Of a stretch of 56,545 bases of DNA, positions 2,071 through 41,177 are shown piece by piece. Under the pieces are notes generated by a model. It was not told where the DNA came from and did no database searches. It was given only the letters and a program-made list of their open reading frames with translations. Numbering within the stretch: position 1 is the stretch's first letter; every line of letters starts with the position of its first letter. The translations under genes and the position numbers were made by a program. The DNA is from Bacteroidales bacterium (lineage in GTDB: Bacteria; Bacteroidota; Bacteroidia; Bacteroidales; UBA12170): positions 1-56,545 of the forward strand of contig JAGGWH010000057.1 in NCBI GenBank assembly GCA_021157585.1, given 5' to 3'.

Positions 2071-4314
2071 ATGAGAAAAAATTATCTGCTTTTTATCTTG
2101 ATTTTTATCACCTCTTTTGGTTTCTCTCAAAGCATTACTTGGAATGGTTATGAGATATCTTATATTGCTGAAACTAGTTTTGACACTGGCTTAGACGGTA
2201 AAGATGTAAACTCCAAATTACAAATTACAAATATCAGTAACACATCACCCCTGCCCCTTTATTTTCAGTTGTATATTGAGGGTCTATCATCTGAAGATCC
2301 TATTAGAGATACCCATGGTGATGGTGGCTTTGCTGTATTTCCTAATGGAGGCGGACTTCTTATAGAACAAGGTCAGACGGCATATACTCAAAGCTGGTTG
2401 AGTGGAATTTACGAAGGCCGATTTGGAAATATTCCACCTATAGTTGGTGAAACAAAACCTTATAATTTCCATTTTCTTTTTAGCGAATCTAGCGATGCAT
2501 TAAATGCTGCGGGCTTTCCAAAAAATGAAACTACAGTTGCTGATTTACCCGTAGTTTTAGAGTTTACTAATCACGAGAATTCTGTAGATGTAAGCAATGG
2601 CGATCTAAGCATCACTGTTGAAGTTACAACCGATGATACTTTTCCTTTTAGGGTTGAAGTAGTTACGGAATTAAGAGGCTTTATAGGCACTGACCTATTC
2701 AATACCATTCGTGTACAAAATGGCAATGGAGGAACAACACCTTATATTTTCAAAGCGAATGTTGCAAACAGAGACGATTGGGTAGTTAGAATCGACAAAC
2801 CAGATAAGAAAATAGAAATAATAAACGTTGATCCTAACGATCCTAATATTAGCATTACACTAACTCCGTCTATGCAAGGGATTTCTCCTTACGATTTCAC
2901 TTTACTTAAATCAATAAATACGGCTACAGGTTTTTGGCGCGGTGCAGTATCGGAAAGTGAAGGCACATTCTTAGCTGTTCCTGGTCAAGAAAATTGGAGT
3001 TCATCAGGACCTTCTAAAGCAGATTCGAAAATTTACAAATATAGTTTTGATGGAACATTAATTTGGGATTTCGACTTTGAATGGGAAGCTTGGGGTGGAG
3101 ATATGAGCGAAGACGGTAAAATAGTTATTGTAGCTAGCAACCGTCCTGAAAGCTCAGGAACTTACAACCCTTCCGGCGATGAATATATGCTTGTTATCGA
3201 TGGCGAGACAGGAAATGTAATGGCTAATATTCCAGGTCTGGAAACCAAAAGTTTAAAAATATCGCGAGATGCTAAATACGTAGCTATTGGATCACAACAC
3301 GGAACTTTCCATATTTACGATATTGTGAACCACTTAATGCATATGAATGTTGGCGGCTCTAATATTCACGGACAAGTACGAGAAATGTTATGGAGTAGCG
3401 ACAATACTTCTCTTTACGTGAGTACAGGCGATGGTTATCTAAGAAAATACAGTCTAAACCTATCAGAAACAGTAAGTTCAATAAATACTTGGACAGCATA
3501 TGCTGGTGGCTGGGCTTTTATAAACGGATTAAATCTAAGCGAAGACTTCAACTATATTACTGTTGGTTCAAAAGACAAAGGACAAACCGTTATAAGCACT
3601 ACAGATGGAACTGTTCTTTGGGCTAAGCATACGGGGAATTTCGATTCGAAGATTTCTAAAGACGGTAGAAGGTTAGTTACTTTTGGAGGCAAAATATTTG
3701 ATCTGCTTACAGGAGAATTAACAGGATTTTTAAACCGTACTGCCACAGCTCATTTCTTTAATACAAGCGACTTTATACTAGCTGCAGATAGAGTAACGAT
3801 AAACGGAGATAATATCCAAAATGGTATTACTGTGCATTCGCTGGAAGGAATTCAGTTAAACAATACGCTTGGAAAAGACCGATTTTATGATACAAATGAT
3901 TTAAGTTATACTGGAGGCGAGCAAGTGCAATGGTCTTACCTTTCTGATGATGATAGCCGACTTATTGTTTTAAGTCGAGATATGAATACCCTAAACGAAG
4001 TAGGCATTTCTATTTATTCTATTGCGAATAATGGAGAAGGACCTTTATCTGTTGAGGATAAACCTACGTTTTCTGATATGATTATGCTCTACCCTAACCC
4101 AGCAAATGAAAGACTCAACTTTTTACTTAGCAATAGTTTTATCGATGATATCACTTCTATCCAAATATTAGATATTAGTGGTCGGATAGTAAAAAATATT
4201 GAATCTATTCTTCCGCATTTAAGTGTTGATATTAACGATTTAGATACTGGAATTTACCTTGTTAGAGTTCAAACTCTAAACGGAAAATATTCTACTAAAC
4301 TTGTGAAGAGATAA
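2071..4314 (+). CDS. T9SS-secreted WD40/quinoprotein-like beta-propeller protein
   Basis: 747 residues. Residues 1-20 are a signal peptide ending at GFSQ. Residues 21 to about 280 are beta-rich modules without a recognised family. From about 285 to 660 the sequence is propeller-like, with repeated strands that end in an aspartate turn (KIYKYSFDGTLIWDFDF, YMLVIDGETGNVMANI, YVAIGSQHGTFHIYDI, LYVSTGDGYLRKYSL). The last ~75 residues are a T9SS type A sorting domain: YPNPANERLNF, then QILDISGRIV, GIYLVRV and a terminal KLVKR. It should therefore cross the outer membrane by T9SS and be attached to the surface or released. No enzymatic residues are visible. It is a single-gene unit followed by a strong hairpin terminator. 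Confidence 0.85.
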   Translation: MRKNYLLFILIFITSFGFSQSITWNGYEISYIAETSFDTGLDGKDVNSKLQITNISNTSPLPLYFQLYIEGLSSEDPIRDTHGDGGFAVFPNGGGLLIEQGQTAYTQSWLSGIYEGRFGNIPPIVGETKPYNFHFLFSESSDALNAAGFPKNETTVADLPVVLEFTNHENSVDVSNGDLSITVEVTTDDTFPFRVEVVTELRGFIGTDLFNTIRVQNGNGGTTPYIFKANVANRDDWVVRIDKPDKKIEIINVDPNDPNISITLTPSMQGISPYDFTLLKSINTATGFWRGAVSESEGTFLAVPGQENWSSSGPSKADSKIYKYSFDGTLIWDFDFEWEAWGGDMSEDGKIVIVASNRPESSGTYNPSGDEYMLVIDGETGNVMANIPGLETKSLKISRDAKYVAIGSQHGTFHIYDIVNHLMHMNVGGSNIHGQVREMLWSSDNTSLYVSTGDGYLRKYSLNLSETVSSINTWTAYAGGWAFINGLNLSEDFNYITVGSKDKGQTVISTTDGTVLWAKHTGNFDSKISKDGRRLVTFGGKIFDLLTGELTGFLNRTATAHFFNTSDFILAADRVTINGDNIQNGITVHSLEGIQLNNTLGKDRFYDTNDLSYTGGEQVQWSYLSDDDSRLIVLSRDMNTLNEVGISIYSIANNGEGPLSVEDKPTFSDMIMLYPNPANERLNFLLSNSFIDDITSIQILDISGRIVKNIESILPHLSVDINDLDTGIYLVRVQTLNGKYSTKLVKR

Positions 4315-22983: not shown

Positions 22984-25900
22984 ATGTTTTTAATTTTCGA
23001 TACCGAAACTACAGGACTTCCCAAGAACTATAAAGCAAGTTATAAAGACACCGACAATTGGCCACGTATGGTACAAATATCCTGGCAATTACATGATGTT
23101 AGAGGGAAGCTTATCGAAGTTAAAAATTTCATTATTAAACCCGAAAATTACGAAATACCCTATGCTGTTGTAAAAGTTCATGGTATTACAACAGAGCGTG
23201 CAGAAAAGCAGGGTGTTGCTTTAGATTTTGTTTTAAAAGAGTTTAATAAAGCCCTTGAACAATGCATATATATAGTTGGACATAATGTAGATTTTGACAT
23301 TAATGTTTTAGGTGCAGAATTTGTAAGAAAAAAAATAAATACAGAGCTTCACCGCAGGAAATCTCTTGATACAAAGGATGATTCAACAGAATATTGTGCT
23401 CTACCAGGTGGTCGTGGTGGTGGATTTAAGTGGCCAAAATTAGAAGAATTACACGAAAAACTCTTTGGAGATAAGTTTAGTGGGGCACACAATGCTGCCG
23501 CAGATGTAGAAGCAACAGCACGTTGTTTTCTGGAGCTAATTCGTTTGCAAGTTATTCCAAAAGAAAAAATTGGATTTGAAGATGAAGAGTTAAATACATT
23601 TAAAACACATAATCCAAAACCGATTAAAGCTATTGGCCTCAATACCAAGCCTTATAATCCCCAAGATCTTAAAGATAGTGATACTAAAACAAAACAAGAA
23701 GATAGTATTCCAAGAGAGAATCTGAGGAATTTTCAAAGCATAGAGCAGCCTCTCAATTACACTTTCACTCATTTACATGTACATACTCAGTATTCTATAT
23801 TAGACGGTGCAACAAATATAGATTTACTAGCAAAAAAGGCCAAAGCCGATAATATGGAAGCAGTTGCAATAACTGACCATGGCAATATGTTCGGGGTTAA
23901 ACAGTTTCACAAAACAATGACTAAAATAGGCATCAAACCCATTCTTGGGTGCGAAGCTTATGTTGCTCACAGAGGGAGAGCAAAAAAGGAAGGAAAACAA
24001 GATGCCTCAGGCTGGCATTTAATATTATTAGCTAAAAACGAAATTGGTTATCATAACCTGATGAAAATGGTTTCTCTAGCTTGGTTAGAAGGGCAATATT
24101 ATAAGCCAAGAATTGATAAGGAGTTAATCGAAAAATATCATGAAGGAATAATTGCTACTTCTGCTTGTTTAGGTGGAGAAATTTCTCAAAAGCTTATGAA
24201 TAGCAGCTTTGAAGAAGCTGAAAAAGCAGCTTTGTGGTATAAAAGTATTTTCGGTGATGATTTCTATCTTGAAATTATGCGACATAAGAGTAAGAATACC
24301 GAAATAAATGAGAAAGTTTATAATGACCAAGTATTTGTTAATCATAAAATTGTAGAAATAGGGCAAAAGAATAATATAAAAATTATTGCCACCAATGATG
24401 TTCACTTCCTAAATGAAGAAGATGCAGAAGCTCAAGACAGATTATTATGTATTAGCACGGGAAAATACCTGAGTGATAAAAATAGAATGAAATATACAGG
24501 GCAAGAATGGTTTAAAACTCAAGATGAAATGAAAGCCCTTTTCTCTGATTTCCCGGAAGCCTTAGCTAATACAAAGGAAATTGTTGACAAAGTAGAATAT
24601 TACGATCTCAACAAAAAACCCATTATGCCCGATTTTAAATTACCGGATGATTTTAATGATGAAAATGAATATCTGCGACATATTGTTTATGAAGGAGCTT
24701 ATTTACGTTGGGGAAAAGATTTAAAACCGGAAATAATTGAGCGTCTTGATTTTGAGTTAAGCACCATAAAAAAAATGGGATTCCCGGGTTACTTTTTAAT
24801 TGTTTGGGATTTCCTAAAAGCTGCCAGAGATATGGGAGTAATAGTAGGTCCCGGACGTGGATCAGCAGCCGGATCAGCAGTAGCATATTCACTCAGAATT
24901 ACAGAAATAGACCCTCTAAAATATAACCTTCTTTTCGAACGGTTTTTAAATCCTGATCGTATCTCTATGCCCGATATTGATATTGATTTTGATGATGAAG
25001 GACGATCAAAAATATTAAAATGGGTAGTTGATAAATATGGCGAAAAAAGAGTTGCCCATATTGTTACCATTGGTACTATGGCAGCCAAATCGTCTATACG
25101 AGATGTAGCAAGAGTTCAACAATACCCCCTATCAGAAACCGACAAAATAGCTAAACTTATTCCCGAACGACCGGGAGTAAATCTTAAAGATGCTTTTAAA
25201 GAAGTTAAAGAATTACGTACTATAAAAGAGTCGGAAACAGATGCTGCCAAAGTTCTAAAATATGCCGAAAAACTTGAAGGTTCTGTTCGGAATACAGGCA
25301 CTCACGCTTGCGGTATAATTATTGGAAAAGATGATCTTGAAAACTACATTCCCATAAGTACCGCAAAAGATTCGGAACTAACATATGTAACGCAGTACGA
25401 TGGAAAACATGTAGAAGATATTGGACTGTTGAAAATGGATTTTTTGGGATTAAAAACCTTATCCATTATTAAAAATGCAATCGAAAATATTAAACTGTCT
25501 AAAGGTATTGATGTAGATATCAATAATGTTGACTTAGAGGATACTAAAACCTACGAATTATATTCAAACGGAGAAACAACCGGCTTATTTCAGTTTGAAT
25601 CTGACGGGATGAAAAAGCATTTAAAAGAACTCAAACCCAATAAGTTTGAAGACTTGATAGCTATGAATGCGCTTTACCGTCCCGGACCAATGGAATATAT
25701 CCCACAATTTACAAAGAGGAAAAATGGTATAGAAGAAATAAAGTATGACTTGCCAATGATGCAAGAATATCTTGAAGAAACATACGGTATTACTGTTTAT
25801 CAAGAACAGGTTATGCTTCTTTCCAGAAAATTAGCCGGTTTTACACGTGGTCAGTCCGACTCTTTAAGAAAAGCAATGGGAAAGAAAATAAAGTCGATGA

Positions 25901-27288
25901 TGGATGAATTAAAAGTTCTATTTGTCGATGGTTGTAAGGCAAATCCCAAATTTGTAAAAGAATGTAAAGAGACTAACAAAGATATTGATACGGTAATTGA
26001 AAAAATATGGTCTGACTGGGAAGCATTTGCAAAATATGCTTTTAACAAATCACATGCTACCTGCTACTCTTATGTTTCTTTTCAAACTGCTTATCTTAAA
26101 GCCAATTACCCCGCTGAATTCCTTGCTGCTGTTTTAAGCAACAATATGAATAATATTGATAAGGTTACTTTTTTCATTAACGAATGTAACAGAATGGGGA
26201 TTAAAGTTTTAGGACCAAGCATTAACGAATCGCGCACTAATTTTACAGTTAATAAACAAGGGAATATTCGCTTTGGATTGGCAGCTATTAAAGGTGTTGG
26301 CGAAGCTGCCGTATTAAGCTTGATTGAAGAACGTGAAAAAAATGGAAATCTAAATAATATCTTCGATTTTGTAAAGAGAATAAACCTTAGAGCTGTAAAT
26401 AAAAAGAGCATAGAATCGATGGTATTGGCAGGAGCTTTCGATGATTTTGAAAATATTAATCGTGCTACTTTTTTCCATAGAGAATCGGATAATAATCTAA
26501 ACTTCTTGGAACAAGTAATTAGCTTTGGTCATAAATATCAAGATGAACAAAACTCATCACAAGTTAGTCTGTTTGGCGATTTAGGTTCAGTTGAACTCCC
26601 CGATCCTAATATTCCTATAGTTCAAGAATGGCCTGAGTTAGAAAAACTTGCAAGAGAAAAAGATGTCGTTGGATTTTATTTAACAGGACATCCCTTAGAT
26701 AATTTTCGGGAAGAAATCAATCACTTCACTAATCAAAAAATTGGATCCTTTGCTAATAACTTAAACAAGTTTAAAGAACAATCAATTACATTTGCCGGAG
26801 TTATTACTTCTCCTGCCGATAAAAACAAAATTACAAAAACAGGAAAACCATTTGGCTCTTTTCAAATAACAGACTATTCCGGAAGTACTAACATTACCCT
26901 CTTTGGTGAAGAATTTGAAAAACACAAAGACTTACTAGATAGAATGGGACAATTTTTATTAGTCAAGGCACAAGTTAAAAAGCCAAAGTGGAAAAAAGAC
27001 ACTGATGACTACGAATTAAAAATTATCCAATTAGAACTACTTGCTGATGTTTTTAATAAGTATGTAAGCAAAATAGACTTAGGTATTCCTCTTATATCTA
27101 TTTCAGGCAAAATAGCTCAGGATATAAGTAGCTTTGCAATAAACAACCCAGGAAAAGCCAATGTATATTTTCATATTATTGATAATGAAGAACGGCTAAC
27201 ATTACGACCATCTAAATTAAAGGTTAATCCTAAAGAATTTCTAGTCGGAGTCCGCCAATTTAGTGATATTCAGGTAAAAATTAGTTAA
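22984..27288 (+). CDS. dnaE: DNA polymerase III alpha subunit with N-terminal DnaQ-like exonuclease
   Basis: 1434 residues, longer than E. coli DnaE (1160) because of an N-terminal 3'-5' exonuclease of the DEDDh type: D6 and E8 (FDTETTG), D103 (GHNVDFDI), H169 and D174 (GAHNAAADVEA). From about residue 260 comes the PHP domain (THLHVHTQYSILDGA, ITDHGNMFG). The C-family polymerase core has GPGRGSAAGS and the catalytic Asp pair in MPDIDIDFDDEGR (D664, D666). It ends with the helix-hairpin-helix region, FYLTGHPLDNF and an OB fold. It is the replicative polymerase; fusion would place proofreading in cis. It is monocistronic, with a -7 box before it and a bidirectional terminator after it. Confidence 0.96.
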   Translation: MFLIFDTETTGLPKNYKASYKDTDNWPRMVQISWQLHDVRGKLIEVKNFIIKPENYEIPYAVVKVHGITTERAEKQGVALDFVLKEFNKALEQCIYIVGHNVDFDINVLGAEFVRKKINTELHRRKSLDTKDDSTEYCALPGGRGGGFKWPKLEELHEKLFGDKFSGAHNAAADVEATARCFLELIRLQVIPKEKIGFEDEELNTFKTHNPKPIKAIGLNTKPYNPQDLKDSDTKTKQEDSIPRENLRNFQSIEQPLNYTFTHLHVHTQYSILDGATNIDLLAKKAKADNMEAVAITDHGNMFGVKQFHKTMTKIGIKPILGCEAYVAHRGRAKKEGKQDASGWHLILLAKNEIGYHNLMKMVSLAWLEGQYYKPRIDKELIEKYHEGIIATSACLGGEISQKLMNSSFEEAEKAALWYKSIFGDDFYLEIMRHKSKNTEINEKVYNDQVFVNHKIVEIGQKNNIKIIATNDVHFLNEEDAEAQDRLLCISTGKYLSDKNRMKYTGQEWFKTQDEMKALFSDFPEALANTKEIVDKVEYYDLNKKPIMPDFKLPDDFNDENEYLRHIVYEGAYLRWGKDLKPEIIERLDFELSTIKKMGFPGYFLIVWDFLKAARDMGVIVGPGRGSAAGSAVAYSLRITEIDPLKYNLLFERFLNPDRISMPDIDIDFDDEGRSKILKWVVDKYGEKRVAHIVTIGTMAAKSSIRDVARVQQYPLSETDKIAKLIPERPGVNLKDAFKEVKELRTIKESETDAAKVLKYAEKLEGSVRNTGTHACGIIIGKDDLENYIPISTAKDSELTYVTQYDGKHVEDIGLLKMDFLGLKTLSIIKNAIENIKLSKGIDVDINNVDLEDTKTYELYSNGETTGLFQFESDGMKKHLKELKPNKFEDLIAMNALYRPGPMEYIPQFTKRKNGIEEIKYDLPMMQEYLEETYGITVYQEQVMLLSRKLAGFTRGQSDSLRKAMGKKIKSMMDELKVLFVDGCKANPKFVKECKETNKDIDTVIEKIWSDWEAFAKYAFNKSHATCYSYVSFQTAYLKANYPAEFLAAVLSNNMNNIDKVTFFINECNRMGIKVLGPSINESRTNFTVNKQGNIRFGLAAIKGVGEAAVLSLIEEREKNGNLNNIFDFVKRINLRAVNKKSIESMVLAGAFDDFENINRATFFHRESDNNLNFLEQVISFGHKYQDEQNSSQVSLFGDLGSVELPDPNIPIVQEWPELEKLAREKDVVGFYLTGHPLDNFREEINHFTNQKIGSFANNLNKFKEQSITFAGVITSPADKNKITKTGKPFGSFQITDYSGSTNITLFGEEFEKHKDLLDRMGQFLLVKAQVKKPKWKKDTDDYELKIIQLELLADVFNKYVSKIDLGIPLISISGKIAQDISSFAINNPGKANVYFHIIDNEERLTLRPSKLKVNPKEFLVGVRQFSDIQVKIS

Positions 27289-27386: not shown

Positions 27387-27680
27387 TTATTCTTTTTCTA
27401 CTGATTTTTTTACTGCCTTAGTTGTTTTTGATGCTGTAGTTTTCTTGGCAGGAGCTTTTTTAGCAACGGTTTTCTTAGTAGAGGTTTTTTTAGTAACTGC
27501 TTTCTTAGTCGTAACTTTTTTAGCAACCACTTCTTTAGCCGAAGCCTCTTCTTTTACAACTTTTGCTTTTTTAGTTTTTTTTGGTATAACTATAGCTTTT
27601 TCAGTTTTCCTAGGTCTTCTTACTCCATAAGAACCCATTATAATTTTTCCTCTTCTAGTTTTTTTATCTCCTTTTCCCAT
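27387..27680 (-). CDS. 30S ribosomal protein THX with histone H1-like Lys/Ala/Thr tail
   Basis: 97 residues. The first ~27 match the THX (bTHX) family: MGKGDKKTRRGKIIMGSYGV, then RRPRK. In Thermus this short cationic peptide sits in the head of the 30S subunit. The remaining ~70 residues are low complexity, with tandem VTKK-, TSTKK-, TVAKK- and APAKK-like units, as in histone H1-like bacterial proteins (HctB/Hc1, AlgP). Typical THX proteins are about 25-70 residues. The tail is probably disordered and binds RNA or DNA. It is encoded 118 bases downstream of the TrmH-family gene and ends at a perfect bidirectional terminator. Start ATG 27680 is fixed by the family's N-terminus. Confidence 0.85.
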   Translation of the reverse strand: MGKGDKKTRRGKIIMGSYGVRRPRKTEKAIVIPKKTKKAKVVKEEASAKEVVAKKVTTKKAVTKKTSTKKTVAKKAPAKKTTASKTTKAVKKSVEKE

Positions 27681-27798: not shown

Positions 27799-28479
27799 TT
27801 ATTTGCTAAACAATGTTTTTTCTACATTATCAGCTTCTTTAACAACAGCACGAGCCCAATCTAACTTTACATCCAAAATTTCCGATTCGCTTAATTTCCA
27901 ATCAATATCTTCTGTTCGCATTTTATTGCTTAATTCCTGAAGACATAAAGCAGCCGAAACGCTAATATTATAACTTTCGGTAAACCCATACATAGGAATT
28001 TTTACAAATACATCTGCCTGTTCTTGAACAACTTTCGATAAACCCTTTAATTCTGTTCCGAAAAATAAAGCCGTTTTCTTATCCATATCTAAATCCGACA
28101 ACATAATATCATCGGTATGCGGCAAAGTAGCAACAATTCTGTAACCCTCTGCTTTAAGCTTTTGTATAGCTTTTAATGTATTATTTTCAGATTCATTATA
28201 ACGATGTAGTGTTAACCATTTTGATGCACCTAAAGCAACTTCAGGATTTATTATATACTCATTTCTATTTTCAATAATATGAACATCTTGTATACCAAAG
28301 CAATCTGCCGTTCTTAAAACAGCACTTGCATTTTGAGGCTGATAAATATCTTCCAAGACAACCGTCAAATAACGAGTACGGTATTGTATTATCTCATCGA
28401 ATAATTGATTTTTATGATCTGATATAAAACCTAATAGCTTATTTAAAAGCTGTTTTTTTTGTTCTTTTGTTAAATCCAT
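27799..28479 (-). CDS. TrmH-family RNA 2'-O-methyltransferase
   Basis: 226 residues, SPOUT fold. Motif 1 is YQPQNASAVLRTADCFGIQDVHII; motif 2 ALFFGTELKGLS; motif 3 IPMYGFTESYNISVSAALCLQEL. The FTESYNxS variant and the C-terminal helix of about 40 residues (WKLSESEILDVKLDWAR) fit TrmH, which makes Gm18 in tRNA, better than RlmB. SAM is the donor; enzyme is cytoplasmic. It starts 92 bases from the FKBP operon end and is probably followed by THX on one transcript. Confidence 0.88.
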   Translation of the reverse strand: MDLTKEQKKQLLNKLLGFISDHKNQLFDEIIQYRTRYLTVVLEDIYQPQNASAVLRTADCFGIQDVHIIENRNEYIINPEVALGASKWLTLHRYNESENNTLKAIQKLKAEGYRIVATLPHTDDIMLSDLDMDKKTALFFGTELKGLSKVVQEQADVFVKIPMYGFTESYNISVSAALCLQELSNKMRTEDIDWKLSESEILDVKLDWARAVVKEADNVEKTLFSK

Positions 28480-28571: not shown

Positions 28572-29918
28572 TTATTCTTTAATGATATCAAGTAATTCAA
28601 CATCAAACTTTAAGGGAGAATAAGGTTTAATCAAAGCTCCCGCTTGACGTTCGCCATAAGCAAGGCTTGAAGGTAAAATAAGCGTAGCTTTTCCTCCAAC
28701 TTTCATCATTGCAATTCCTTCGTCCCATCCTTTAATCACTTTTCCTTGTCCAAGAACAAACTCAAAAGCTTGGCCTCTGTCAACAGAAGAATCAAATTTA
28801 GTTCCATCTAATAAAGTACCAGTATAATGTACTTTTACTTTATCTCCTGCAACGGCCTGTTCACCATCACCTTCAAGAGTAGAAATAAAGTACAATCCAC
28901 TAGCTGTAGGCTCAACGGTAATTTCATTATCGGCAATATATTTTGCCAAAACAGAAGCTTCTTGTAAACGAGCAGCCTCAAGTTTTGCAGCTTCATTTTT
29001 ACGTTTTGCTTCAAGTTCAGCCTCATGTTCTGCTTTTGTTTTAACATCTGTTAAACGAACAAAATAATGTAATGCGGTATATGGTTCAACCATCCCCGGA
29101 CGTCCTTTTTCACCAAGAGCTAAAGAAGAAGGAATAAGAAGTTCAACCTCATCACCTTGTCGCATAGTTCCCAAAGCTTCCATTAAACCTTTGGTATCAA
29201 ACCGTTTACCATATTCGTAAGAAGCCGGACGATTAGACTCAATAGAAGAATATGCAAGCTTTCCGTCTAAAAATCTAATTTCAAAATCGAAAGTTATAAA
29301 CTCACCTTCTTTCACTCTACGACCTTTTCCTTTTTTAATCTTTTTAATCTCCAAGCCACTTTCTAAAGCTTTTCCCGTCCATTTTTGATCAGCTTTAAAC
29401 TTCGAAACTTCTATCTGCTCTGCAATACGACGTGCATTAGCATAAGCGGCTTGCTCAGCTTCCATTTCTTCTTTGGTCTTAATATCCTTAAGATTTATAA
29501 AGAAATAAACTTCATTTTTTTCTTTAAAGATTTCAGGTACTTGAGGAGCACGTGTGGTTTTTAAGAAAAATGAATCGGCACGAATAATAAACTGAGCGCT
29601 ATCTCCTTTACTTAGCAATGAAAGAGCTTCCCACACATCACCATCAAAAACTTTCTCGCGAAAAGGCATTTTCACAATTTTTTCACGACTCTGCACACTT
29701 TTGAAAATAACAGAATCGGCAGTACCATAATTCATATCCATAATATAAAACTTCCCACTGTCGGCTTTAATATCTTTTAATGAATCTACCCTGCTGATTA
29801 TCTTATAATAAATACCACTATCAGTTTTTTTAAAATCAGGATGTGGATTGTTACATCCCACAAAAAAGGTTACAAGAAAGAGCAAAAATCCACTTGTTTT
29901 TAAAATTTTCCAGTTCAT
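28572..29918 (-). CDS. Lipoprotein with three FKBP-type units (peptidyl-prolyl isomerase)
   Basis: 448 residues. Lipobox FFVGC (Cys22). Three FKBP-like units follow: residues about 30-150 (degenerate), 185-295 (partly kept: FDFEIRFLDGKLAYSS, EALGTMRQGDEVELLIPSSLALG) and 340-447 (canonical: VHYTGTLLDGTKFDSS, VIKGWDEGIAMMKVGGKATLILPSSLAYG, PLKFDVELLDI). Charged helical linkers rich in Ala/Glu/Lys separate them (EAEQAAYANARRIAEQ; EAELEAKRKNEAAKLEAARL). Only the last unit keeps the catalytic-site aromatic residues, so the first two may be chaperone or binding modules. Likely periplasm-facing, outer-membrane folding helper. It is the third FKBP gene, 17 bases after the previous one. Confidence 0.9.
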   Translation of the reverse strand: MNWKILKTSGFLLFLVTFFVGCNNPHPDFKKTDSGIYYKIISRVDSLKDIKADSGKFYIMDMNYGTADSVIFKSVQSREKIVKMPFREKVFDGDVWEALSLLSKGDSAQFIIRADSFFLKTTRAPQVPEIFKEKNEVYFFINLKDIKTKEEMEAEQAAYANARRIAEQIEVSKFKADQKWTGKALESGLEIKKIKKGKGRRVKEGEFITFDFEIRFLDGKLAYSSIESNRPASYEYGKRFDTKGLMEALGTMRQGDEVELLIPSSLALGEKGRPGMVEPYTALHYFVRLTDVKTKAEHEAELEAKRKNEAAKLEAARLQEASVLAKYIADNEITVEPTASGLYFISTLEGDGEQAVAGDKVKVHYTGTLLDGTKFDSSVDRGQAFEFVLGQGKVIKGWDEGIAMMKVGGKATLILPSSLAYGERQAGALIKPYSPLKFDVELLDIIKE

Positions 29919-29935
29919 TTTAGTTTATTTTATTA

Positions 29936-30814
29936 TTATTTTACATCAATTAATTCTACTTCAAACACTAATGGGGTATATGGCGGTATCTGGCCACGAC
30001 CTTTACCATACCCTATATCAGAAGGGATAAGCAATAAAGCCTTTCCGCCTTTTCTCATTTTTAAAATACCTTGATCCCAGCCAGTGATTACATAACCTCT
30101 TCCCAATTCAAATTCAATGGGCTTACCTCGACTATAAGAAGAATCAAATACAGTACCGTCTAAAAATTTCCCTGTATAATGAACACTTACACGATGTCCT
30201 GCCATTGCTTGCTTTCCTGTTCCCCTACGAATAGGTACAAAATAAAGACCATTGATGTCGGGGTTAACAGAAATATTATTTTCCAAAATGTAAGTATTTA
30301 TTGCTTCTTCTTCATTTTTCAAGCCTTCTATTCTAGCTAATTCTTTTTCCCTTTCTAACTCCTCTAAGGATTGTACATTATGCATACGTATATCAAAAAT
30401 AATTCGGCTTTTATCATCAATAAAATCCGGTAATCGTGTTAAAAACGCATTCTTCAATAAGAAAGAATCAGCTCTAATAACAAAAGTTGCGCTATCACCC
30501 TTACTCATCATCGACAATGCTTCGTTAATATCACCTGCGAAAACAGGCTTTACTAATTCTATAGGTATTGTTTTACCATTTCCATCAAAAAGCAGGGAAT
30601 CTTCGTTTGTTTTATAACGCATCTCAATGGTAATATAATCACCTACTTTGGCTTTTCTTCCATCGTTTTTCTCATGAAATTTATAGAGTAAACCCGAATC
30701 TGTTTTTTTAAAACCCGGATAATCACCAAAATAGCTACAGGATGATAATATTATGCTACTAAAAGCTAAAATTATCAGCAAAACTCTCCATTTTTTCCAA
30801 GCAATTGTATCCAT
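29936..30814 (-). CDS. Lipoprotein with two FKBP-type units (peptidyl-prolyl isomerase)
   Basis: 292 residues. Lipobox ILSSC (Cys26). The first unit (about 35-150) is degenerate and very close in layout to the first unit of the 448-residue neighbour: DFKKTDSG-type start, GDINEALSMMSKGDSATFVIRADSFLLK. The second (about 190-292) is canonical: VHYTGKFLDGTVFDSSYSRG, VITGWDQGILKMRKGGKALLLIPSDIGYG, PLVFEVELIDV. A charged linker (LEELEREKELARIEGLK) joins them. It begins one base after the stop of the single-unit FKBP gene, so the two are translated together. Confidence 0.9.
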   Translation of the reverse strand: MDTIAWKKWRVLLIILAFSSIILSSCSYFGDYPGFKKTDSGLLYKFHEKNDGRKAKVGDYITIEMRYKTNEDSLLFDGNGKTIPIELVKPVFAGDINEALSMMSKGDSATFVIRADSFLLKNAFLTRLPDFIDDKSRIIFDIRMHNVQSLEELEREKELARIEGLKNEEEAINTYILENNISVNPDINGLYFVPIRRGTGKQAMAGHRVSVHYTGKFLDGTVFDSSYSRGKPIEFELGRGYVITGWDQGILKMRKGGKALLLIPSDIGYGKGRGQIPPYTPLVFEVELIDVK

Positions 30815-30815
30815 T

Positions 30816-31358
30816 CTATTTTAAATCAATTAATTTAACTTCATATATTAAACTTGCCTTTGCGGGAATTAATTGTCCATCACCCTGCAAGCCATATGCA
30901 AGATGCGAAGGTAAGATAAATCGAGCTTTATCGCCTAATTTTAAAAATAAAATCCCTTCTTCCAAACCCGTTTCTACCCCTCCATGTCCAAGCTCAAAAA
31001 TTTTAAGTCCTGTATTTTCAGAAGAATAAATTAGCTGACCAGAAAGTAAATATACTTTATATTCCAAACTAACTATTTTACCTATTTGAGCTTTTTCTCC
31101 ATTCCCTTTCTCAATAATCATCCAACGTAATCCGGTTCCTGTTTCCTCCATTTTCCAAGCTTTACTTTCAATAAGCTTATTAATGCTTTCATCCTCAATA
31201 GCAACCAATTGAGTATTAACCTTCAGCATTTGCTCCTCAATTTCAGCTAAATTAACAGGCTGTTGTTTATTCTTAACAGTATCATCTTTACAAGCGACAA
31301 AAAATAACACAAACAAAGTATAGATAATTACCTTCGATAAATTATAACTGAACTGCAT
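30816..31358 (-). CDS. FKBP-type peptidyl-prolyl isomerase lipoprotein (GldI-like position)
   Basis: 180 residues. Lipobox FFVAC (Cys23). One FKBP unit occupies about 75-180: VSLEYKVYLLSGQLIYSS, GVETGLEEGILFLKLGDKARFILPSHLAYG, KASLIYEVKLIDL. GldI of flavobacterial gliding motility is a lipoprotein PPIase of this size, and a DHH-phosphatase gene beside it is, to my recollection, common in Bacteroidota; sequence identity to GldI cannot be judged here. The start ATG 31358 overlaps the nrnA end by 17 bases. It probably assists folding of exported proteins. Confidence 0.86.
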   Translation of the reverse strand: MQFSYNLSKVIIYTLFVLFFVACKDDTVKNKQQPVNLAEIEEQMLKVNTQLVAIEDESINKLIESKAWKMEETGTGLRWMIIEKGNGEKAQIGKIVSLEYKVYLLSGQLIYSSENTGLKIFELGHGGVETGLEEGILFLKLGDKARFILPSHLAYGLQGDGQLIPAKASLIYEVKLIDLK

Positions 31359-32367
31359 TTATTTCGGATTTGTACTGAGTAATAATTTTATTTAATTTTT
31401 CTATCGTTTCCTGCATAGAAAGAAAGCTATTACCACCTGCCGCATTTTTATGACCTCCACCCTCAAAATATTCATTTGCAATTTTATTAACTGCAAAACT
31501 TGATTTTGAGCGAAAGGAAAGACGGATCTTATCATCTTTTTCGGTTAATAATGCAGCAGCTACTATATTTTCAATTCCTAAAGCATAATTTACCAAGCCT
31601 TCAGTATCACCATTTTGGTGATCAAAACGGTTTAGATCTTCTTTTGTTAAAGAAATATAAGCAAAACGCAATTCATTATTTACAACTAATTTTTCACTTA
31701 TTGCATAACCAGTCAAACGTAAGCGTCCTTCTGTAAAAGCACTATAAATACGTTGGTTAATTGCCTGAATATCTATACCTGTATTATATAAAAAGGCAGC
31801 TATAATGTATGGTTTATCACTATTTATAGAAAAGCTAAATGATCCTGTATCTGTAAGAAGTCCAACGTATAAGCTCTCTGCAAGCTCCTTATTTATCTTT
31901 TCTAATTGCCCCAAATCCTCAATAAAGCGGAAAATCAATTCAGCAGTTGAACTTGCCGAAGTATCTGAAATTTTCGCTTCAAAAATATCCGCCGGATTTG
32001 GATGATGATCTATCATAAATTTAACGGCAGATGCATTCTCCAATAGAGTACTCATACCTTCACCAGTACGATGAAAAGCATTATAATCGACGGCGAAAAT
32101 AAACTCTGCTTCATCTATCTCTTGCTTGGCAATACCCGGATGAGTATCGTAAATTGTAATTTGCTCATAGCCAGAAATCCATTGTAGAAATTTAGGAGCC
32201 ACATTTGGACTAATTATTTTAACTTGATGACCAAATTGAATTAAATAATGATAAAGCGCAAGACAAGAGCCTATTGTATCTCCATCGGGACTGGCATGTG
32301 CAGTTAAAACAATTTTTCGTTTTTCAATAAGCTGCTTATATATATTTTGATATTCGTTGTATTTCAA
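31342..32367 (-). CDS. nrnA: Bifunctional oligoribonuclease/PAP phosphatase NrnA-like (DHH/DHHA1)
   Basis: 341 residues. N-terminal DHH domain: HASPDGDTIGSCLALYHYL, VDYNAFHRTG, and the name-giving MIDHHPNP; TDTGSFSFS follows. C-terminal DHHA1 domain ends with GGGHKNAAGG. NrnA degrades 2-5 nt RNA and pAp with Mn2+ in the cytoplasm. The start is TTG 32367; no in-frame ATG precedes the first conserved strand. A TATTTTTG -7 box (32412-32405) places the transcript start about 30 bases upstream, supporting it. First gene of a four-gene operon with three FKBP lipoproteins; divergent from ndk. Confidence 0.92.
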   Translation of the reverse strand: MKYNEYQNIYKQLIEKRKIVLTAHASPDGDTIGSCLALYHYLIQFGHQVKIISPNVAPKFLQWISGYEQITIYDTHPGIAKQEIDEAEFIFAVDYNAFHRTGEGMSTLLENASAVKFMIDHHPNPADIFEAKISDTSASSTAELIFRFIEDLGQLEKINKELAESLYVGLLTDTGSFSFSINSDKPYIIAAFLYNTGIDIQAINQRIYSAFTEGRLRLTGYAISEKLVVNNELRFAYISLTKEDLNRFDHQNGDTEGLVNYALGIENIVAAALLTEKDDKIRLSFRSKSSFAVNKIANEYFEGGGHKNAAGGNSFLSMQETIEKLNKIITQYKSEINAVQL

Positions 32368-36728: not shown

Positions 36729-38378
36729 CTAATCTATCTTAGCTATTTTCTCAGTTTGTGTTTGAATACCATTGCTTAGACGCAAAAAATAAATTCCACT
36801 TTTATAATCTCCAAGAGAAAGACGATAAAAACTACTGCTTTTATCAAGCTTGTCACTATAAATAACACGGCCCTGGATATCAAGTAATTCTATAGTTTTA
36901 AAATCATTATTACTTTGATCCCAACGGACTATAGAGATATTTGAAACGGGATTTGGGCTTATTGTAATTGAATTTTTTGATAATAATTGTTCAGATATTC
37001 CCAAAAGAATACGAGCATTATTAAAATCGGGAATTCCGTACCCATATCTATTATCGGGTGTTGAATATTGCGAAGCACTTTTCTCAACAGCTTGAATAAT
37101 ATCCATATTATTAGCGTCGGGAATAGCTTGCCATAAACAAGCCATCATTCCTGCAATTAATGGAGAAGAAAAAGAAGTCCCATTTCCTGTCCTTAATACG
37201 TCGGCATCAACATTTGCTAAAACAGTACCTCCTCCTTGTGCTACAATATTTGGTTTTACTCGTGAATCTGACTCAAATCCGTATGAACTAAAATTTGTAA
37301 TTAATCCATCAGCATCAACAGCACCAATAGTAAAAACACTGTCACCATCGGCTGGAGCAATTAAATATTTCCAAGAATCATCACCTGAATTTCCTGCAGA
37401 ATTTACAACAATAATTCCTTTAGATGCAGCTAAATCAGCAGCTTTGGTTACTTCAATAGTATTTCCATCAAAATCATCATAAGAATGATCATAAACAGCA
37501 TCATCGAATTCATTATATCCCAAAGAAGAATTAATAACATCTGCTCCCACACTATCGGCAAAGGCAGCACCTGCAATCCAATTATATTCTTCAATTAAAA
37601 ATTCGGAGCCAGTTTCTTCTGTAAGCAGTAGCCAATAATCAGCTTCGGGAGCAGTTCCTAAAAAAGTATCGGGTAAATAGCCTCCCATTACAGATAAAAC
37701 CATAGTTCCGTGGGTGTTATATCTATAAACATCCTCAGCAGGATTAACAAAATTATAAGAACCCAAAATCTGATTATTGTCCCATAGTGAACTGAAAATT
37801 GTTCGAACATTAGCGTTTATAAAACCTGCATCCAAAACAGCTATCACCATTCCGTCACCTTTAAAACCACTTTCGTGTAAAGGAATTCCGTTAACCATAT
37901 CAATCTGGTTAAAAGCATCGCCATATACAGGATCATTTTCAGTTTGAATCAACTTTAAAGGAATCGTTTCTTCCTCTGCAAATTTATCAACCAATTTAGA
38001 TTTATATGTAGATGATCGTTTATTAATTCCTTCAGCAGAATATACATACGACAAGGCATTTACTGCATCCAAAACCGTTTGTGATTCCACTTCTATGATA
38101 ATGGCATTAATCCACTTTACCTGAATAATAAGCTTTGCACCAGTCGCTATAACACCCTGAATATAAACAGGATCGATAGGAATATCAGTAATATCCACTT
38201 CTAATCCCTGCTTATTACGGCGATCTATAGCACGCTGCGTTAAAAACTCACCGGGCTGAGATAAACTGTAAGGCGATTGATCTTTGTCGGTAAACCTCAC
38301 TAAATATTTGTTTGGCGAGATTTGGGCAAACACCTGAGCAGTAATCGTAAAAAATAATACTATGATAAGCTTACGCAT
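36729..38378 (-). CDS. Secreted S8 subtilisin-like protease with T9SS sorting domain
   Basis: 549 residues. Signal peptide 1-19 (cut after VFAQ). N-terminal propeptide-like region to about 150. Catalytic triad D183 (VIAVLDAGF), H223 (YNTHGTMVLS) and S402 (GTSFSSPLIAG), with oxyanion N330 (NSAGNSG). The final ~80 residues are a T9SS type A sorting domain: ISPNPVSNISIV, IELLDIQGRVIYS, GIYFLRLSNG and a short basic end. It should be exported by T9SS and act outside the cell, perhaps trimming other secreted proteins. It starts 12 bases after the amylase stop, so the two form one operon. Confidence 0.94.
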   Translation of the reverse strand: MRKLIIVLFFTITAQVFAQISPNKYLVRFTDKDQSPYSLSQPGEFLTQRAIDRRNKQGLEVDITDIPIDPVYIQGVIATGAKLIIQVKWINAIIIEVESQTVLDAVNALSYVYSAEGINKRSSTYKSKLVDKFAEEETIPLKLIQTENDPVYGDAFNQIDMVNGIPLHESGFKGDGMVIAVLDAGFINANVRTIFSSLWDNNQILGSYNFVNPAEDVYRYNTHGTMVLSVMGGYLPDTFLGTAPEADYWLLLTEETGSEFLIEEYNWIAGAAFADSVGADVINSSLGYNEFDDAVYDHSYDDFDGNTIEVTKAADLAASKGIIVVNSAGNSGDDSWKYLIAPADGDSVFTIGAVDADGLITNFSSYGFESDSRVKPNIVAQGGGTVLANVDADVLRTGNGTSFSSPLIAGMMACLWQAIPDANNMDIIQAVEKSASQYSTPDNRYGYGIPDFNNARILLGISEQLLSKNSITISPNPVSNISIVRWDQSNNDFKTIELLDIQGRVIYSDKLDKSSSFYRLSLGDYKSGIYFLRLSNGIQTQTEKIAKID

Positions 38379-38390
38379 AATCTATTGAAT

Positions 38391-41177
38391 TTATTGTTTA
38401 ATCAACTTCTCTTGATATTTCCCTTCCTTTGTAATTATTTCATAAATATATAATCCTGATTTTAAGGATGAAATATCTATGCTCTCCTGCACTTGTTGGT
38501 CTTTCCAATTTCCAGACAAGACCTCTTTACCTTGCAAAGAAAATATCTTCCATTCTATAACTTTAATAGAATTTGAAGGTACAATATATAAAAGATTTTC
38601 TGCCGGATTTGGGAATAATTGAAAATTATCATCAGAAATTATTGGATTATTAATTCCTGTCCCTAAGTCTTCTTCAGTTATTTCAGAATCCGAATAGAGT
38701 CTGTATTCTCCGGCATTTAGAGAAATAGTCATATTTACATCTGTTACTTCCAAGCTTGTACCATTAAAATAATCATACCAAGTTCCTGTATGTTGGAAGC
38801 TTCCAACTATATTTCCTGATACAACATCAAAATTTCCTAGAGCAACTACATTAAGTTCAGTACTGTTAAGCTTTACTCTTTTTAATGCATTATAGACATC
38901 CAAATTATAATTTGTTGTTTCAAAAACATCCAATTTAGTTTTTAAATTAGCTATTGAGCTTACAAATGTTTTTAATGCGAATCTGTCAGCATCAAATTGA
39001 TAGTCCCATTTTGGAGGTTTATTACCTACACGACCATTGTAATCGATAGATATATCAAATCCTAATTCTTCAAATTGCCATATCATTTTTGGTCCCGGTA
39101 TTATAAAGTCAAATAAGAAACCTAATTTCATTCGTTCCAAACCAATGGATTTTACCTTAATATCGTAGCTTCCACCATCGTTATTTCCCCATGTATCGGT
39201 ATAAACCATTTGGCGCTCTTCATCGTGACTTTCCATATAAATAACGGCATTAGGATTATTCCATCCGCGTTTTTGGTACGATGCCCAGTCAATATTAGAC
39301 TTTCCGCTATCTGTATAACCCATATGAGCCTCCTTAAAAGAGCCATTCATATTACCCCAAATCATCATGCCATAATCAGCCAATTCTTTCTCTTCATAAT
39401 TATCAGTAAAATGCTCAAGTATAACGTAAGTTTCAGGATTATTTTCCCAAACTTTATCAGCCATTCGCTTGAGAATTGCTATTCTACTTGCATCATAAGC
39501 CCAGCCACTTCCTGAAGTATTGGTAAATCCTTTTGTAAAATCATATCGAAAGCCATCCACTTTAAATTCATCAATCCAGTAGTTGTTAACACGATCGATA
39601 AATGCTTTTGTATCATAACTTTCATGATTAAAATCATAGCCCCAACTATAATCTGTATTGGGAGACTCTATATTGAACCAAGGATTATTTGCGGCGGGTC
39701 TATCATTTACATTATCCCAATACATATGAACCATAGGATTTGAGCCATAGGAATGGTTAAGCACCAAATCAATAATTACAGCAATACCATTTTGATGACA
39801 AACATCGATAAATGCCTTTAAATCGTCTTTGGTACCATAATATTTATCGGGAGCAAAATAAAATGCAGGGTTATATCCCCAGCTTTCATTACCTTCAAAT
39901 TCATTAATAGGCATTAACTCTATAGCATTGATACCAAGATTTTTAAAATAGCTAATAGTATCTATCAACGACTGATATGAATGCTGAATAGTAATATCAC
40001 GCACTAAAGTTTCATAGATAACTAAATCTGTAATTTTTGGCTTTTGAAAATTATTTATTTGCCAATTATAATCTGTTTGAGCAGTTGTAAATACAGAAGC
40101 AATACCGGAAGTTTTCCCTTCCGGATAAGCAGGCAAACCCGAATAAGTCTCATCTCCTATCCACTTATCGTTCCATGGATCGCTTACTTGATCGCAGTAA
40201 ATATCTGCAAACCTATCTGTTCCATCAATAAGATATTGATAAATGTAAGATCGACCTGCTATAAGATTATCAATCTGAATCCAATAACGTAAACCATCGG
40301 GAGTTTTTTTCATATACAACTCTTCGTTTAGTTCCCAATCAGAAAAATCGCCAATTGCAAAAACATCTGTTTTGAAAGGAGCATATAAACAAAGAATTAC
40401 GGTATTATCATCTATATAATTTATTCCATCTTGAATACCTGTGGGCAATGCCTCCACCACTTGTGTTGGGCGAACAAAGTAATAAAATGAATCCTGTTCC
40501 ATATTCATTGCATTATTTGCATAAGCGATAGCTTTTACCCAAGATTTTCCACTTTGAGAAGCAGTAATTGTAGCGTCTAAAACATCCTCGTTTTTAACAG
40601 AAGTATACCATACATCATTAACATAAAGGGCTACACTATCAGCGCTTGTAGAATTTGCTTTAACAACAATTTCATCATTTAATTCAACCAGTAAAGCATC
40701 AGAGGTTGGAAGTTCAAAACTTACATTTAAGCCTTCTTCATACACAGCCACATAAATATCTCCTCCACTTTCAGTCTTGCCTTCTTTTGAGCCATCGGCA
40801 TTACGAAAAACAAATGCCATCTGAAGAATAGTTTCGCCATCGGGAACACCATAAAATTCACGTATAGAAGGACTTATTGTTAGTTGATAAAGGCCACTAC
40901 CTATCGGTGTCAGCTTTGCTTTAGTAGTATTTTCAGTCCAACCGGCAATTACATATTTCCAATCACTTGGAGAAGTGCTAAGGTTGGTAATTACTCCTGT
41001 ATGAGCATATATATCACCCGTAAAACCATCTAAGCCTTTATTTCCTTCAGCAGTATTATAGGTAATAACAACAGCATCTCCAGCAATTGGAAAATCAGGA
41101 TTGGAAACTATGATTTGGGCATTTGCGCTAATGTTAATTGCTAATACAAGCAATAACAAGCTAGTATAAAACTTCAT
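38391..41177 (-). CDS. Secreted GH13 alpha-amylase with E-set modules and T9SS sorting domain
   Basis: 928 residues. Signal peptide 1-20 (ISANAQ). Residues about 22-150 and 155-235 are beta-sandwich modules; 250-335 looks like CBM48/E-set (LYAPFKTDVFAIGDFSDWE). The GH13 barrel spans about 380-800 with catalytic D546 (VDGFRYD), E588 (VILEHF) and D652 (ESHDEE). The C-terminal ~75 residues form a T9SS type A sorting domain (LFPNPAENLLYI, GLYIYEI, EKLIKQ). It should degrade starch or related alpha-glucan at the cell surface. A TATTTTTG -7 box (41211-41204) lies before it. Followed after 12 bases by the subtilase gene. Confidence 0.94.
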   Translation of the reverse strand: MKFYTSLLLLVLAINISANAQIIVSNPDFPIAGDAVVITYNTAEGNKGLDGFTGDIYAHTGVITNLSTSPSDWKYVIAGWTENTTKAKLTPIGSGLYQLTISPSIREFYGVPDGETILQMAFVFRNADGSKEGKTESGGDIYVAVYEEGLNVSFELPTSDALLVELNDEIVVKANSTSADSVALYVNDVWYTSVKNEDVLDATITASQSGKSWVKAIAYANNAMNMEQDSFYYFVRPTQVVEALPTGIQDGINYIDDNTVILCLYAPFKTDVFAIGDFSDWELNEELYMKKTPDGLRYWIQIDNLIAGRSYIYQYLIDGTDRFADIYCDQVSDPWNDKWIGDETYSGLPAYPEGKTSGIASVFTTAQTDYNWQINNFQKPKITDLVIYETLVRDITIQHSYQSLIDTISYFKNLGINAIELMPINEFEGNESWGYNPAFYFAPDKYYGTKDDLKAFIDVCHQNGIAVIIDLVLNHSYGSNPMVHMYWDNVNDRPAANNPWFNIESPNTDYSWGYDFNHESYDTKAFIDRVNNYWIDEFKVDGFRYDFTKGFTNTSGSGWAYDASRIAILKRMADKVWENNPETYVILEHFTDNYEEKELADYGMMIWGNMNGSFKEAHMGYTDSGKSNIDWASYQKRGWNNPNAVIYMESHDEERQMVYTDTWGNNDGGSYDIKVKSIGLERMKLGFLFDFIIPGPKMIWQFEELGFDISIDYNGRVGNKPPKWDYQFDADRFALKTFVSSIANLKTKLDVFETTNYNLDVYNALKRVKLNSTELNVVALGNFDVVSGNIVGSFQHTGTWYDYFNGTSLEVTDVNMTISLNAGEYRLYSDSEITEEDLGTGINNPIISDDNFQLFPNPAENLLYIVPSNSIKVIEWKIFSLQGKEVLSGNWKDQQVQESIDISSLKSGLYIYEIITKEGKYQEKLIKQ

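Follow-up and report, generated by a model that had tools for sequence, protein, structure and literature searches.

A cluster of one-, two- and three-unit FKBP lipoprotein genes at the nrnA-gldI locus of Bacteroidia

In FkpA and Mip a long helix leads into a C-terminal catalytic FKBP unit and the N-terminal part is an all-helical dimer domain; the eukaryotic proteins FKBP73 (wheat) and FKBP51/52 hold several FKBP units per chain, the active unit first, followed by inactive units and a TPR tail. For the Bacteroidota, three reports indicate that FKBP lipoproteins recur in the barrel assembly machinery (BAM) and the SprA translocon (PMC12611786, PMC12578637, PMC9127263), that BamJ, BamK and BamM are lipoproteins of the FKBP fold or peptidyl-prolyl isomerase (PPI) type (PMC12611786, PMC12578637), and that GldI is needed for the stability of GldJ and GldK (PMC9127263); the cyclophilin-FKBP protein type (CFBP, Flavobacteria) is discussed for F. 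johnsoniae in PMC6316441. Here we analysed three adjacent FKBP lipoprotein genes with one, two and three FKBP units (genes 1, 2 and 3), which follow an nrnA-like gene in a 56,545-nucleotide (nt) contig of a Bacteroidales genome (GCA_021157585.1, JAGGWH010000057.1; contig C57 of a 2.93 Mb, 183-contig assembly). This whole contig is called the window; its closest named relatives are metagenome-assembled genomes of Bacteroidales (L007-L009).

The window genes share some properties with each of these systems. Like GldI (TIGR03516), gene 1 encodes one FKBP unit in ~180 amino acids (aa), has a lipobox and a modelled N-terminal helix, lies directly after nrnA and lacks the active-site residues D37 and W59; it differs in its score against TIGR03516 (89.1 bits, under the curated cut-off of 157.6) and in being followed by multi-unit FKBPs, whereas cyclophilin-plus-FKBP proteins follow GldI in loci L074 and L081. 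Proteins of the latter kind, found at this locus in L074, L081 and L091, recall CFBP, which joins a cyclophilin to one FKBP, whereas the window genes join FKBP units only. The likeness to FkpA/Mip lies in the helix that leads into the last unit of gene 3 (unit 3c), and the difference in the N-terminal part, which in the window is lipid-anchored and made up of one or two inactive units of the FKBP type. Several units per chain are also found in FKBP73 and FKBP51/52, but in the window proteins, which are lipoproteins, the putatively active unit comes last. BamJ, BamK and BamM, from the same phylum, are surface lipoproteins of BAM, whereas the proteins of genes 2 and 3, with their two and three FKBP units, carry no surface signal. 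Finally, the PPI lipoprotein of the SprA translocon of the type IX secretion system (T9SS; 6h3i chain B) has the FKBP fold with an N-terminal extension; its structural match to the gene-1 model has Z 19.2 (128 residues) and that to unit 3c Z 19.1, at 25-30% identity; many other FKBPs score alike, with no sign of closer kinship. We consider it rather probable that the array as a whole is the Bacteroidia nrnA-gldI locus, extended by multi-unit, periplasmic FkpA/Mip-like chaperones in which inactive units have been retained.

The FKBP array at the nrnA-gldI locus

The original prediction had placed three adjacent FKBP lipoprotein genes with one, two and three units here, and both coordinates and unit counts agree with the open reading frames (ORFs), the Pfam domains and the AlphaFold2 models (Table 1). 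FKBP_C (PF00254) scores over its gathering threshold in all three proteins (173.6, 120.3 and 64.9 bits vs 21.1), a Pfam scan of genes 1-3 at E-values up to 1 returned no other domain, and four of the six FKBP_C matches of the whole genome lie within this array. A lipobox was recognised by regular expression in each protein (FFVA-C, ILSS-C and FFVG-C in genes 1, 2 and 3, respectively), and all three are thus predicted, as claimed before, to be bacterial lipoproteins with a signal peptide and a lipobox cysteine. The gaps between genes 1 and 2 (1 nt) and genes 2 and 3 (17 nt) are short, and therefore an operon is likely.

For the comparison between genomes a region of up to ~8 kb downstream of nrnA was taken, and linkage was defined as the presence of an FKBP gene on the same strand within 600 nt. 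Such a gene follows nrnA in 9 of 10 loci of the genus (the miss, L037, is due to a contig edge), in 17 of 26 loci of the order (three genomes without an nrnA match and one with only a piece of nrnA at a contig end were left out), in 27 of 29 loci of the class outside the order (29 of the 31 available were fetched) and in none of the 11 loci fetched, out of 96 available, from other classes. According to NCBIfam, the first gene is GldI in L074 (245.6 bits), L081 (218.9 bits) and L091 (188.3 bits); in L079, the fourth locus from another order that was scanned in this way, none of the three genes is a true GldI. Gene 2 of L074 and L081 and gene 3 of L091 match peptidylprolyl isomerase A/B models together with FKBP. 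Gene 1 of the window shares its genomic place with true GldI, and because true GldI occupies the first-gene place in these three loci, the FKBP array is a local version of the gldI locus. The row of FKBP genes is an old and variable feature of the class Bacteroidia: gldI is usually treated as a single gliding protein, and here its locus appears as a class-wide variable cluster of prolyl-isomerase lipoproteins.

A check of conservation, proposed with the original prediction, found the array kept across families. The 1-2-3 layout occurs among the nrnA loci in L035, L036, L043 and L044, and with a fourth gene in L065; among 27 loci found by a two-unit query, a set biased towards two-unit genes, it occurs in L014, with a fourth gene in L010-L012, and in L009 with gene 1 cut at a contig edge. 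In L017, L020, L022 and L052 the one-unit gene is followed by the three-unit gene and there is no two-unit gene. PGN_0742-0744 of P. gingivalis, isomerase genes with neighbouring numbers, may be the same locus; a literature search turned up no publication that describes this FKBP array or the TACCTTCGCA element discussed below. In nine loci of other Bacteroidota lineages (L016, L021, L023, L024, L026, L028, L029, L031 and L033) a one-unit gene stands in a row with two genes of two units each and a gene for a protein of ~355 aa whose FKBP is C-terminal, with no nrnA match within the available stretch.

In five of the 11 genomes of the genus (G001, G005, G006, G007 and G010) nrnA and gene 2 have no gene 1 between them, and a profile search of these five genomes returned no gene-1-like score elsewhere; in G004 gene 1 is divided between two contigs. 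A tree built from nrnA and genes 2 and 3 requires at least two changes in gene-1 state and therefore at least two losses of gene 1. Genes 2 and 3 persist after the loss (gene 3 of G006 being split over two contigs), and SprA, GldJ and GldK were found in all 11 genomes, the latter two each over the cut-off in ten; the scores under the cut-off, GldJ in G010 and GldK in G009, belong to pieces at contig ends.

Fold, active sites and origin of the units

The AlphaFold2 model of the 448-aa three-unit protein shows the FKBP-like strand order three times, with helices at aa 149-178 and 295-330 in between (predicted local distance difference test, pLDDT, 88.1); the relative placement of the three units is uncertain because the predicted template modelling score (pTM) is 0.54. 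The 180-aa protein is modelled as one FKBP with a helix at aa 37-66 (pLDDT 91.5). That the degenerate first unit is truly homologous to FKBP was confirmed by hhalign against the catalytic units (99.5%, E 2.9e-23). Foldseek ranks wheat FKBP73 and FKBP51/52 highest for the three-unit model, and unit 3c, taken together with its helix, can be superposed on LpMIP (Z 20.1, root-mean-square deviation 2.7 Å, 153 residues) and on E. coli FkpA (Z 19.8, 2.3 Å, 152 residues).

The residues at the FKBP12-equivalent positions Y26, F36, D37, V55, I56, W59, Y82 and F99 were counted over 186 units. Window unit 3c has all eight, like unit 2b, and across loci it keeps Y26, V55, W59, Y82 and F99 in 19/19 and D37 in 18/19; unit 2b keeps Y26 in 33/34, D37 in 30/34, W59 in 21/34 and Y82 in 26/34, with D37 and W59 both at 10/10 within the genus. 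Units 2a, 3a and 3b do not have this residue set. At the eight positions window unit 3b reads F A Y D T L L Y (A36, Y37, D55, T56, L59, L82), and across loci D37 is replaced by Y in 16/19, V55 by D in 16/19, I56 by T in 14/19 and F99 by Y in 19/19. Gene 1 of the window reads Y I Y V E L Y Y, in which Y26 is kept. Among 31 first genes (a recount, as the initial 34 rows included three single-unit genes from other positions) D37 is present in one (Y in 26), I56 in four (E in 24) and W59 in none (L in 27), and the three true GldI rows within these 31 lack D37 and W59 too. The proposal that only the last unit of each protein looks catalytic thus holds for genes 2 and 3 and fails for gene 1, the one-unit protein of which does not look catalytic by its residues (I36, Y37, E56, L59).

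The first units of genes 2 and 3 had been noted for similar motifs (IRADSFFLK / IRADSFLLK), which are indeed present in the translations, and a loose 'GDS...ADSF' pattern occurs in 18 of 34 2a units, in 18 of 19 3a units and in none of the remaining 134 of 187 units. Two trees were built: a careful one of 109 units, picked from the 186 aligned for tractability, and a quick one of all 186. In the 109-unit tree, a single branch (support 100/98) separates the 2a and 3a units (30/30) from all others, which bears out their proposed common origin; in the 186-unit tree, which gave long-branch warnings, a set of 50 rows with a Shimodaira-Hasegawa-like approximate likelihood ratio (SH-aLRT) support of 100 holds 30 of 34 2a units, all 19 3a units and one other, the remaining four 2a rows falling elsewhere. 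Unit 3b forms one clade in both (13/13, 100/97, and 19/19 at 99), which supports a single gain of the middle unit. Units 2b and 3c are intermixed in the 109-unit tree, and 3b is placed among them at 81/90. Neither 3a as one clade (p 0.194) nor genus 2a grouped with its 3a (p 0.448) was rejected by approximately unbiased (AU) tests. Duplication with one domain gain, as originally proposed, is the simplest reading, with the date of the duplication between genes 2 and 3 not fixed by the AU tests. The stepwise ladder from one over two to three units is unsupported, because gene 1 represents a separate, GldI-like lineage, the middle unit is placed among the catalytic units and four relatives have arrays with genes 1 and 3 and without gene 2.

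Two further kinds of multi-unit gene were observed. The fourth array gene carries two units of the catalytic type (CC; L010 4002-4814, L011 7557-8378, L012 7575-8381, L065 4944-5762, oriented coordinates), and each of its unit types forms its own clade. A different three-unit FKBP has near-complete active sites in all units (CCC; L013 6382-7590, L015 2938-4155), a layout unlike that of window gene 3.

Localisation, constraint and rival explanations

Two or more acidic residues at positions +2 to +7 after the lipobox cysteine were taken as a surface signal, counted only for proteins with a recognised lipobox; acidic residues near the cysteine characterise the BAM dome lipoproteins (PMC12578637). 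The signal is present in 14 of 16 SusD-like controls from the genus and the order (22 examined), in 0 of 17 three-unit proteins (19 examined) and in 7 of 33 two-unit proteins (none of the 10 from the genus), and window genes 2 and 3 have one acidic residue each at these positions. Because the signal is absent there and present in the SusD-like controls, the proteins of genes 2 and 3 probably face the periplasm. For gene 1 the signal is mixed: it is present in 5 of 28 proteins (31 examined), the window protein (C-KDDTV) included.

Within the genus, mean identity (45 pairs each) is 0.681 for unit 2a, 0.679 for 2b, 0.590 for 3a, 0.583 for 3b and 0.776 for 3c, and 0.609 for gene 1 (15 pairs); 2a exceeds 2b in 21 of the 45 pairs, and 3a or 3b never exceeds 3c. 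The ratio of non-synonymous to synonymous substitution rates (dN/dS) is 0.05-0.47 wherever computable (eight genome pairs), a rough figure with dS often above 1 or saturated. As judged from these sequence comparisons, constraint acts on the inactive units, more weakly on 3a and 3b than on 3c. We give very little credence to the idea that the degenerate units are functionless, decaying leftovers and the array simply a dosage of ordinary FKBP: units 2a, 3a and 3b lack the active-site residues and 3a and 3b have changed faster than 3c, but 2a is as conserved as 2b, dN/dS is below 1, the motif positions of 2a are invariant over 18 aligned sequences (with deviations in other loci) and the layout is kept across families.

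Two other explanations draw on known systems. It is quite improbable that the genes encode surface-exposed peptidyl-prolyl isomerase subunits of the dome or canopy of Bacteroidota BAM, like the FKBP-type lipoproteins BamJ, BamK and BamM. The three-unit protein does exceed the NCBIfam BamJ cut-off (NF053689; 115.9 vs 100) and gene 1 has acidic residues behind its lipobox, but the best BamJ stretch covers the last unit and helix only (aa 305-442), a protein of another lineage passes the same cut-off (L091 gene 2, 105.0 bits) and genes 2 and 3 lack the acidic signal of the SusD-like controls; BamJ membership of the three-unit protein was rejected on localisation signal and coverage. Somewhat less unlikely, though still doubtful, is a dedicated T9SS/gliding assembly module, in which all three proteins would stabilise ring lipoproteins of the GldJ/GldK type as GldI does. 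It would fit the GldI-like gene 1 at the gldI locus, the dependence of GldJ and GldK on GldI and the presence of the T9SS in the host (SprA, GldJ, GldK and 36 T9SS tail domains). However, the five congeners that lack gene 1 at this place keep SprA, GldJ and GldK along with genes 2 and 3, and G018 and G042 have no SprA match, yet do have nrnA-linked FKBP genes. The co-occurrence with SprA has itself little power, because 64 of the 66 genomes searched have SprA. The array may have a role in T9SS or gliding.

We therefore return to the extended nrnA-gldI locus, a reading that builds on gene order, units, trees, active-site residues, lipoboxes and conservation; location, isomerase activity, clients and function would be as follows. 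The proteins of genes 2 and 3 would be outer-membrane lipoproteins facing the periplasm. Their C-terminal FKBP unit would be an active prolyl isomerase, borne in gene 3 on a long helix as in FkpA/Mip, and the preceding units, having lost the active site, would have been retained as binding or spacing modules for unfolded envelope clients. Such clients might be outer-membrane proteins, lipoproteins and parts of the T9SS, caught by the inactive units while the terminal unit isomerises their prolines. Support for such a mechanism is indirect and comes from the destabilisation of GldJ and GldK on loss of GldI and from the recurrence of FKBP lipoproteins in BAM and the SprA translocon. Both genes would derive by duplication from an ancestral inactive-plus-active gene, and the three-unit form would have gained one further unit once, probably from the catalytic lineage, which was later inactivated; gene 1 would be a GldI-like, non-catalytic partner. 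The locus would then tie together gliding/T9SS stability, BAM-dome FKBP subunits and periplasmic chaperones, testable in one place.

Several observations weigh against this explanation. Linkage is missing in 9 of the 26 loci of the order: L051 lies at a contig edge, in L056 the FKBP genes are found at a distance of 3.2 kb, in L050 an FKBP gene stands upstream of nrnA instead and in six there is none. Seven of the 33 two-unit proteins, none of them from the genus, do carry at least two acidic residues, and the predicted localisation is read from few residues after the cysteine. Isomerase activity of 2b and 3c is likewise read from residues, and in 13 of the 34 loci unit 2b lacks W59. Units 3a and 3b have changed more rapidly than 3c, the support for the position of the middle unit among the catalytic units (81/90) is modest, and the single-unit rows (true GldI and gene 1) form one clade in 15% of the bootstrap trees, the starred branches not excluding it.

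The TACCTTCGCA element and neighbouring features

Within gene 1, TACCTTCGCA reads as the codons xTA CCT TCG CAY and lies 89 nt before gene 2 in the window and 62-131 nt before the next FKBP start across loci. Gene 1 was compared in 52 distinct sequences (53 rows, two of which, L009 and L038, are the same contig). The element is present in all 15 that precede a three-unit gene of the window layout and in none of the 37 others; nine of these 37 encode amino acids that permit TACCTTCGCA, all from lineages with two two-unit genes, and L013 and L015, also among the 37, precede a different kind of three-unit gene. The codons CCT and TCG are used in 15/15, with a window usage of 45% of proline codons for CCT and 9% of serine codons for TCG. 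A scan for synonymous conservation gave an excess codon identity of 0.52 at gene-1 codons 148-151, the highest value in 414 control windows of nrnA, gene 2 and gene 3 being 0.25.

The element is also found where gene 1 has been lost. In the five gaps (162-191 nt), tblastn recovered a remnant of the stretch around the gene-1 FILPSH codons, the best E-value per genome ranging from 2e-9 to 0.005 among the matches listed; as the best of 250 shuffled gaps reached 0.004, the remnant of G005 taken alone is not above the control. TACCTTCGCA is identical in all five gaps, of which those of G007 and G010 are nearly identical to each other, and a stop codon lies within or beside the remnant stretch in G001 and G005. 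Protein constraint accounts neither for the synonymous identity nor for the persistence of the element in remnants that no longer code. Common descent of the loci that have a three-unit gene confounds the co-occurrence; it confounds the codon identity less, because dS has reached saturation, or nearly so, in comparisons inside the genus too. In the 2.93 Mb assembly there is a single exact copy of the 10-mer (two of the reversed control), and TACCTTCGCA is therefore not a common promoter word.

The balance tips slightly towards TACCTTCGCA acting in cis as a regulatory site; the simplest form would be an internal promoter with TACCTTCGCA as its -7 box (TAnnTTTG in the Bacteroidota) and with the multi-unit FKBP genes downstream under its control. 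On this reading the element, which has outlived gene 1 in at least two independent losses, would constrain four gene-1 codons across families. The internal promoter is a plausible best guess; a regulator site or a site acting at the RNA level may be involved instead. If true, TACCTTCGCA would be a clear case of a regulatory-type DNA site that constrains codons and stays behind as a fossil after the death of the gene. With the array genes excluded from the count, TANNTTTGC is enriched 6.1-fold upstream of genes (23 matches before 201 genes of the order loci), and TANNTTCGC 3.3-fold (5 matches), equal to TANNTTAGC (6 matches) in the same loci; in the smaller sets TANNTTCGC reaches 31-fold (window) and 7.6-fold (genus), values that rest on 3 upstream matches. 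Motifs at -33 and -7 are mentioned for Bacteroidota in PMC12611786, and a by-eye search found no -33 box at the usual distance from TACCTTCGCA.

A structured RNA was considered and rejected: the window and four loci gave no Rfam match around TACCTTCGCA, and a shared fold of 17 leaders was dismissed with z-scores mostly near zero (two at or below -2: L039 -3.2, L011 -2.2). By eye, the gaps before gene 2 in L034, L039 and L040, where gene 1 is lost, contain short hairpins with GAAA loops and differing stems, with no shared fold in the folding test.

Table 1. Features of the window discussed in the text
Feature	Coordinates	Strand	Basis or remark
nrnA-like DHH/DHHA1 phosphoesterase	31342..32367	-	first gene of putative operon; 17-nt overlap with gene 1
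Gene 1, one-unit FKBP lipoprotein, GldI-like, 180 aa	30816..31358	-	unit ~30819-31133; N-terminal helix aa 37-66
Gene 2, two-unit FKBP lipoprotein, 292 aa	29936..30814	-	ORF, Pfam
Gene 3, three-unit FKBP lipoprotein, 448 aa	28572..29918	-	ORF, Pfam, AlphaFold2
Unit 2a, non-catalytic FKBP unit of 'GDSAxF...ADSF' type	30374..30700 (approximate)	-	tree, active-site residues, hhalign
Unit 2b, FKBP unit with all eight active-site residues	29942..30253 (approximate)	-	active-site residues
Unit 3a, non-catalytic first unit, clade of 2a	29481..29822 (approximate)	-	tree, active-site residues
Unit 3b, middle unit, single origin, active site replaced	29043..29360 (approximate)	-	tree, active-site residues
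Unit 3c, catalytic-type; helix aa 295-330 before it	28584..28901 (approximate)	-	residues, model, superposition
TACCTTCGCA, DNA-level conserved element in gene 1, codons 149-152	30904..30913	-	codon conservation
SpoU-family RNA methylase, next downstream	27799..28479	-	92 nt gap after gene 3

The SpoU-family methylase gene is probably a transcription unit separate from the FKBP array. Elsewhere in the window, a 97-aa ORF (27387-27680, - strand) begins like ribosomal protein THX (TIGR04560, 52.1 bits) and continues into a histone H1-like tail rich in lysine and alanine, and a 1434-aa ORF (22984-27288, + strand) looks by eye like a DNA polymerase III alpha with an N-terminal exonuclease-like domain. 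Three of the 36 T9SS sorting tails (TIGR04183) of the genome lie in the window, at 4087-4311 (+), 36738-36962 (-) and 38394-38618 (-).

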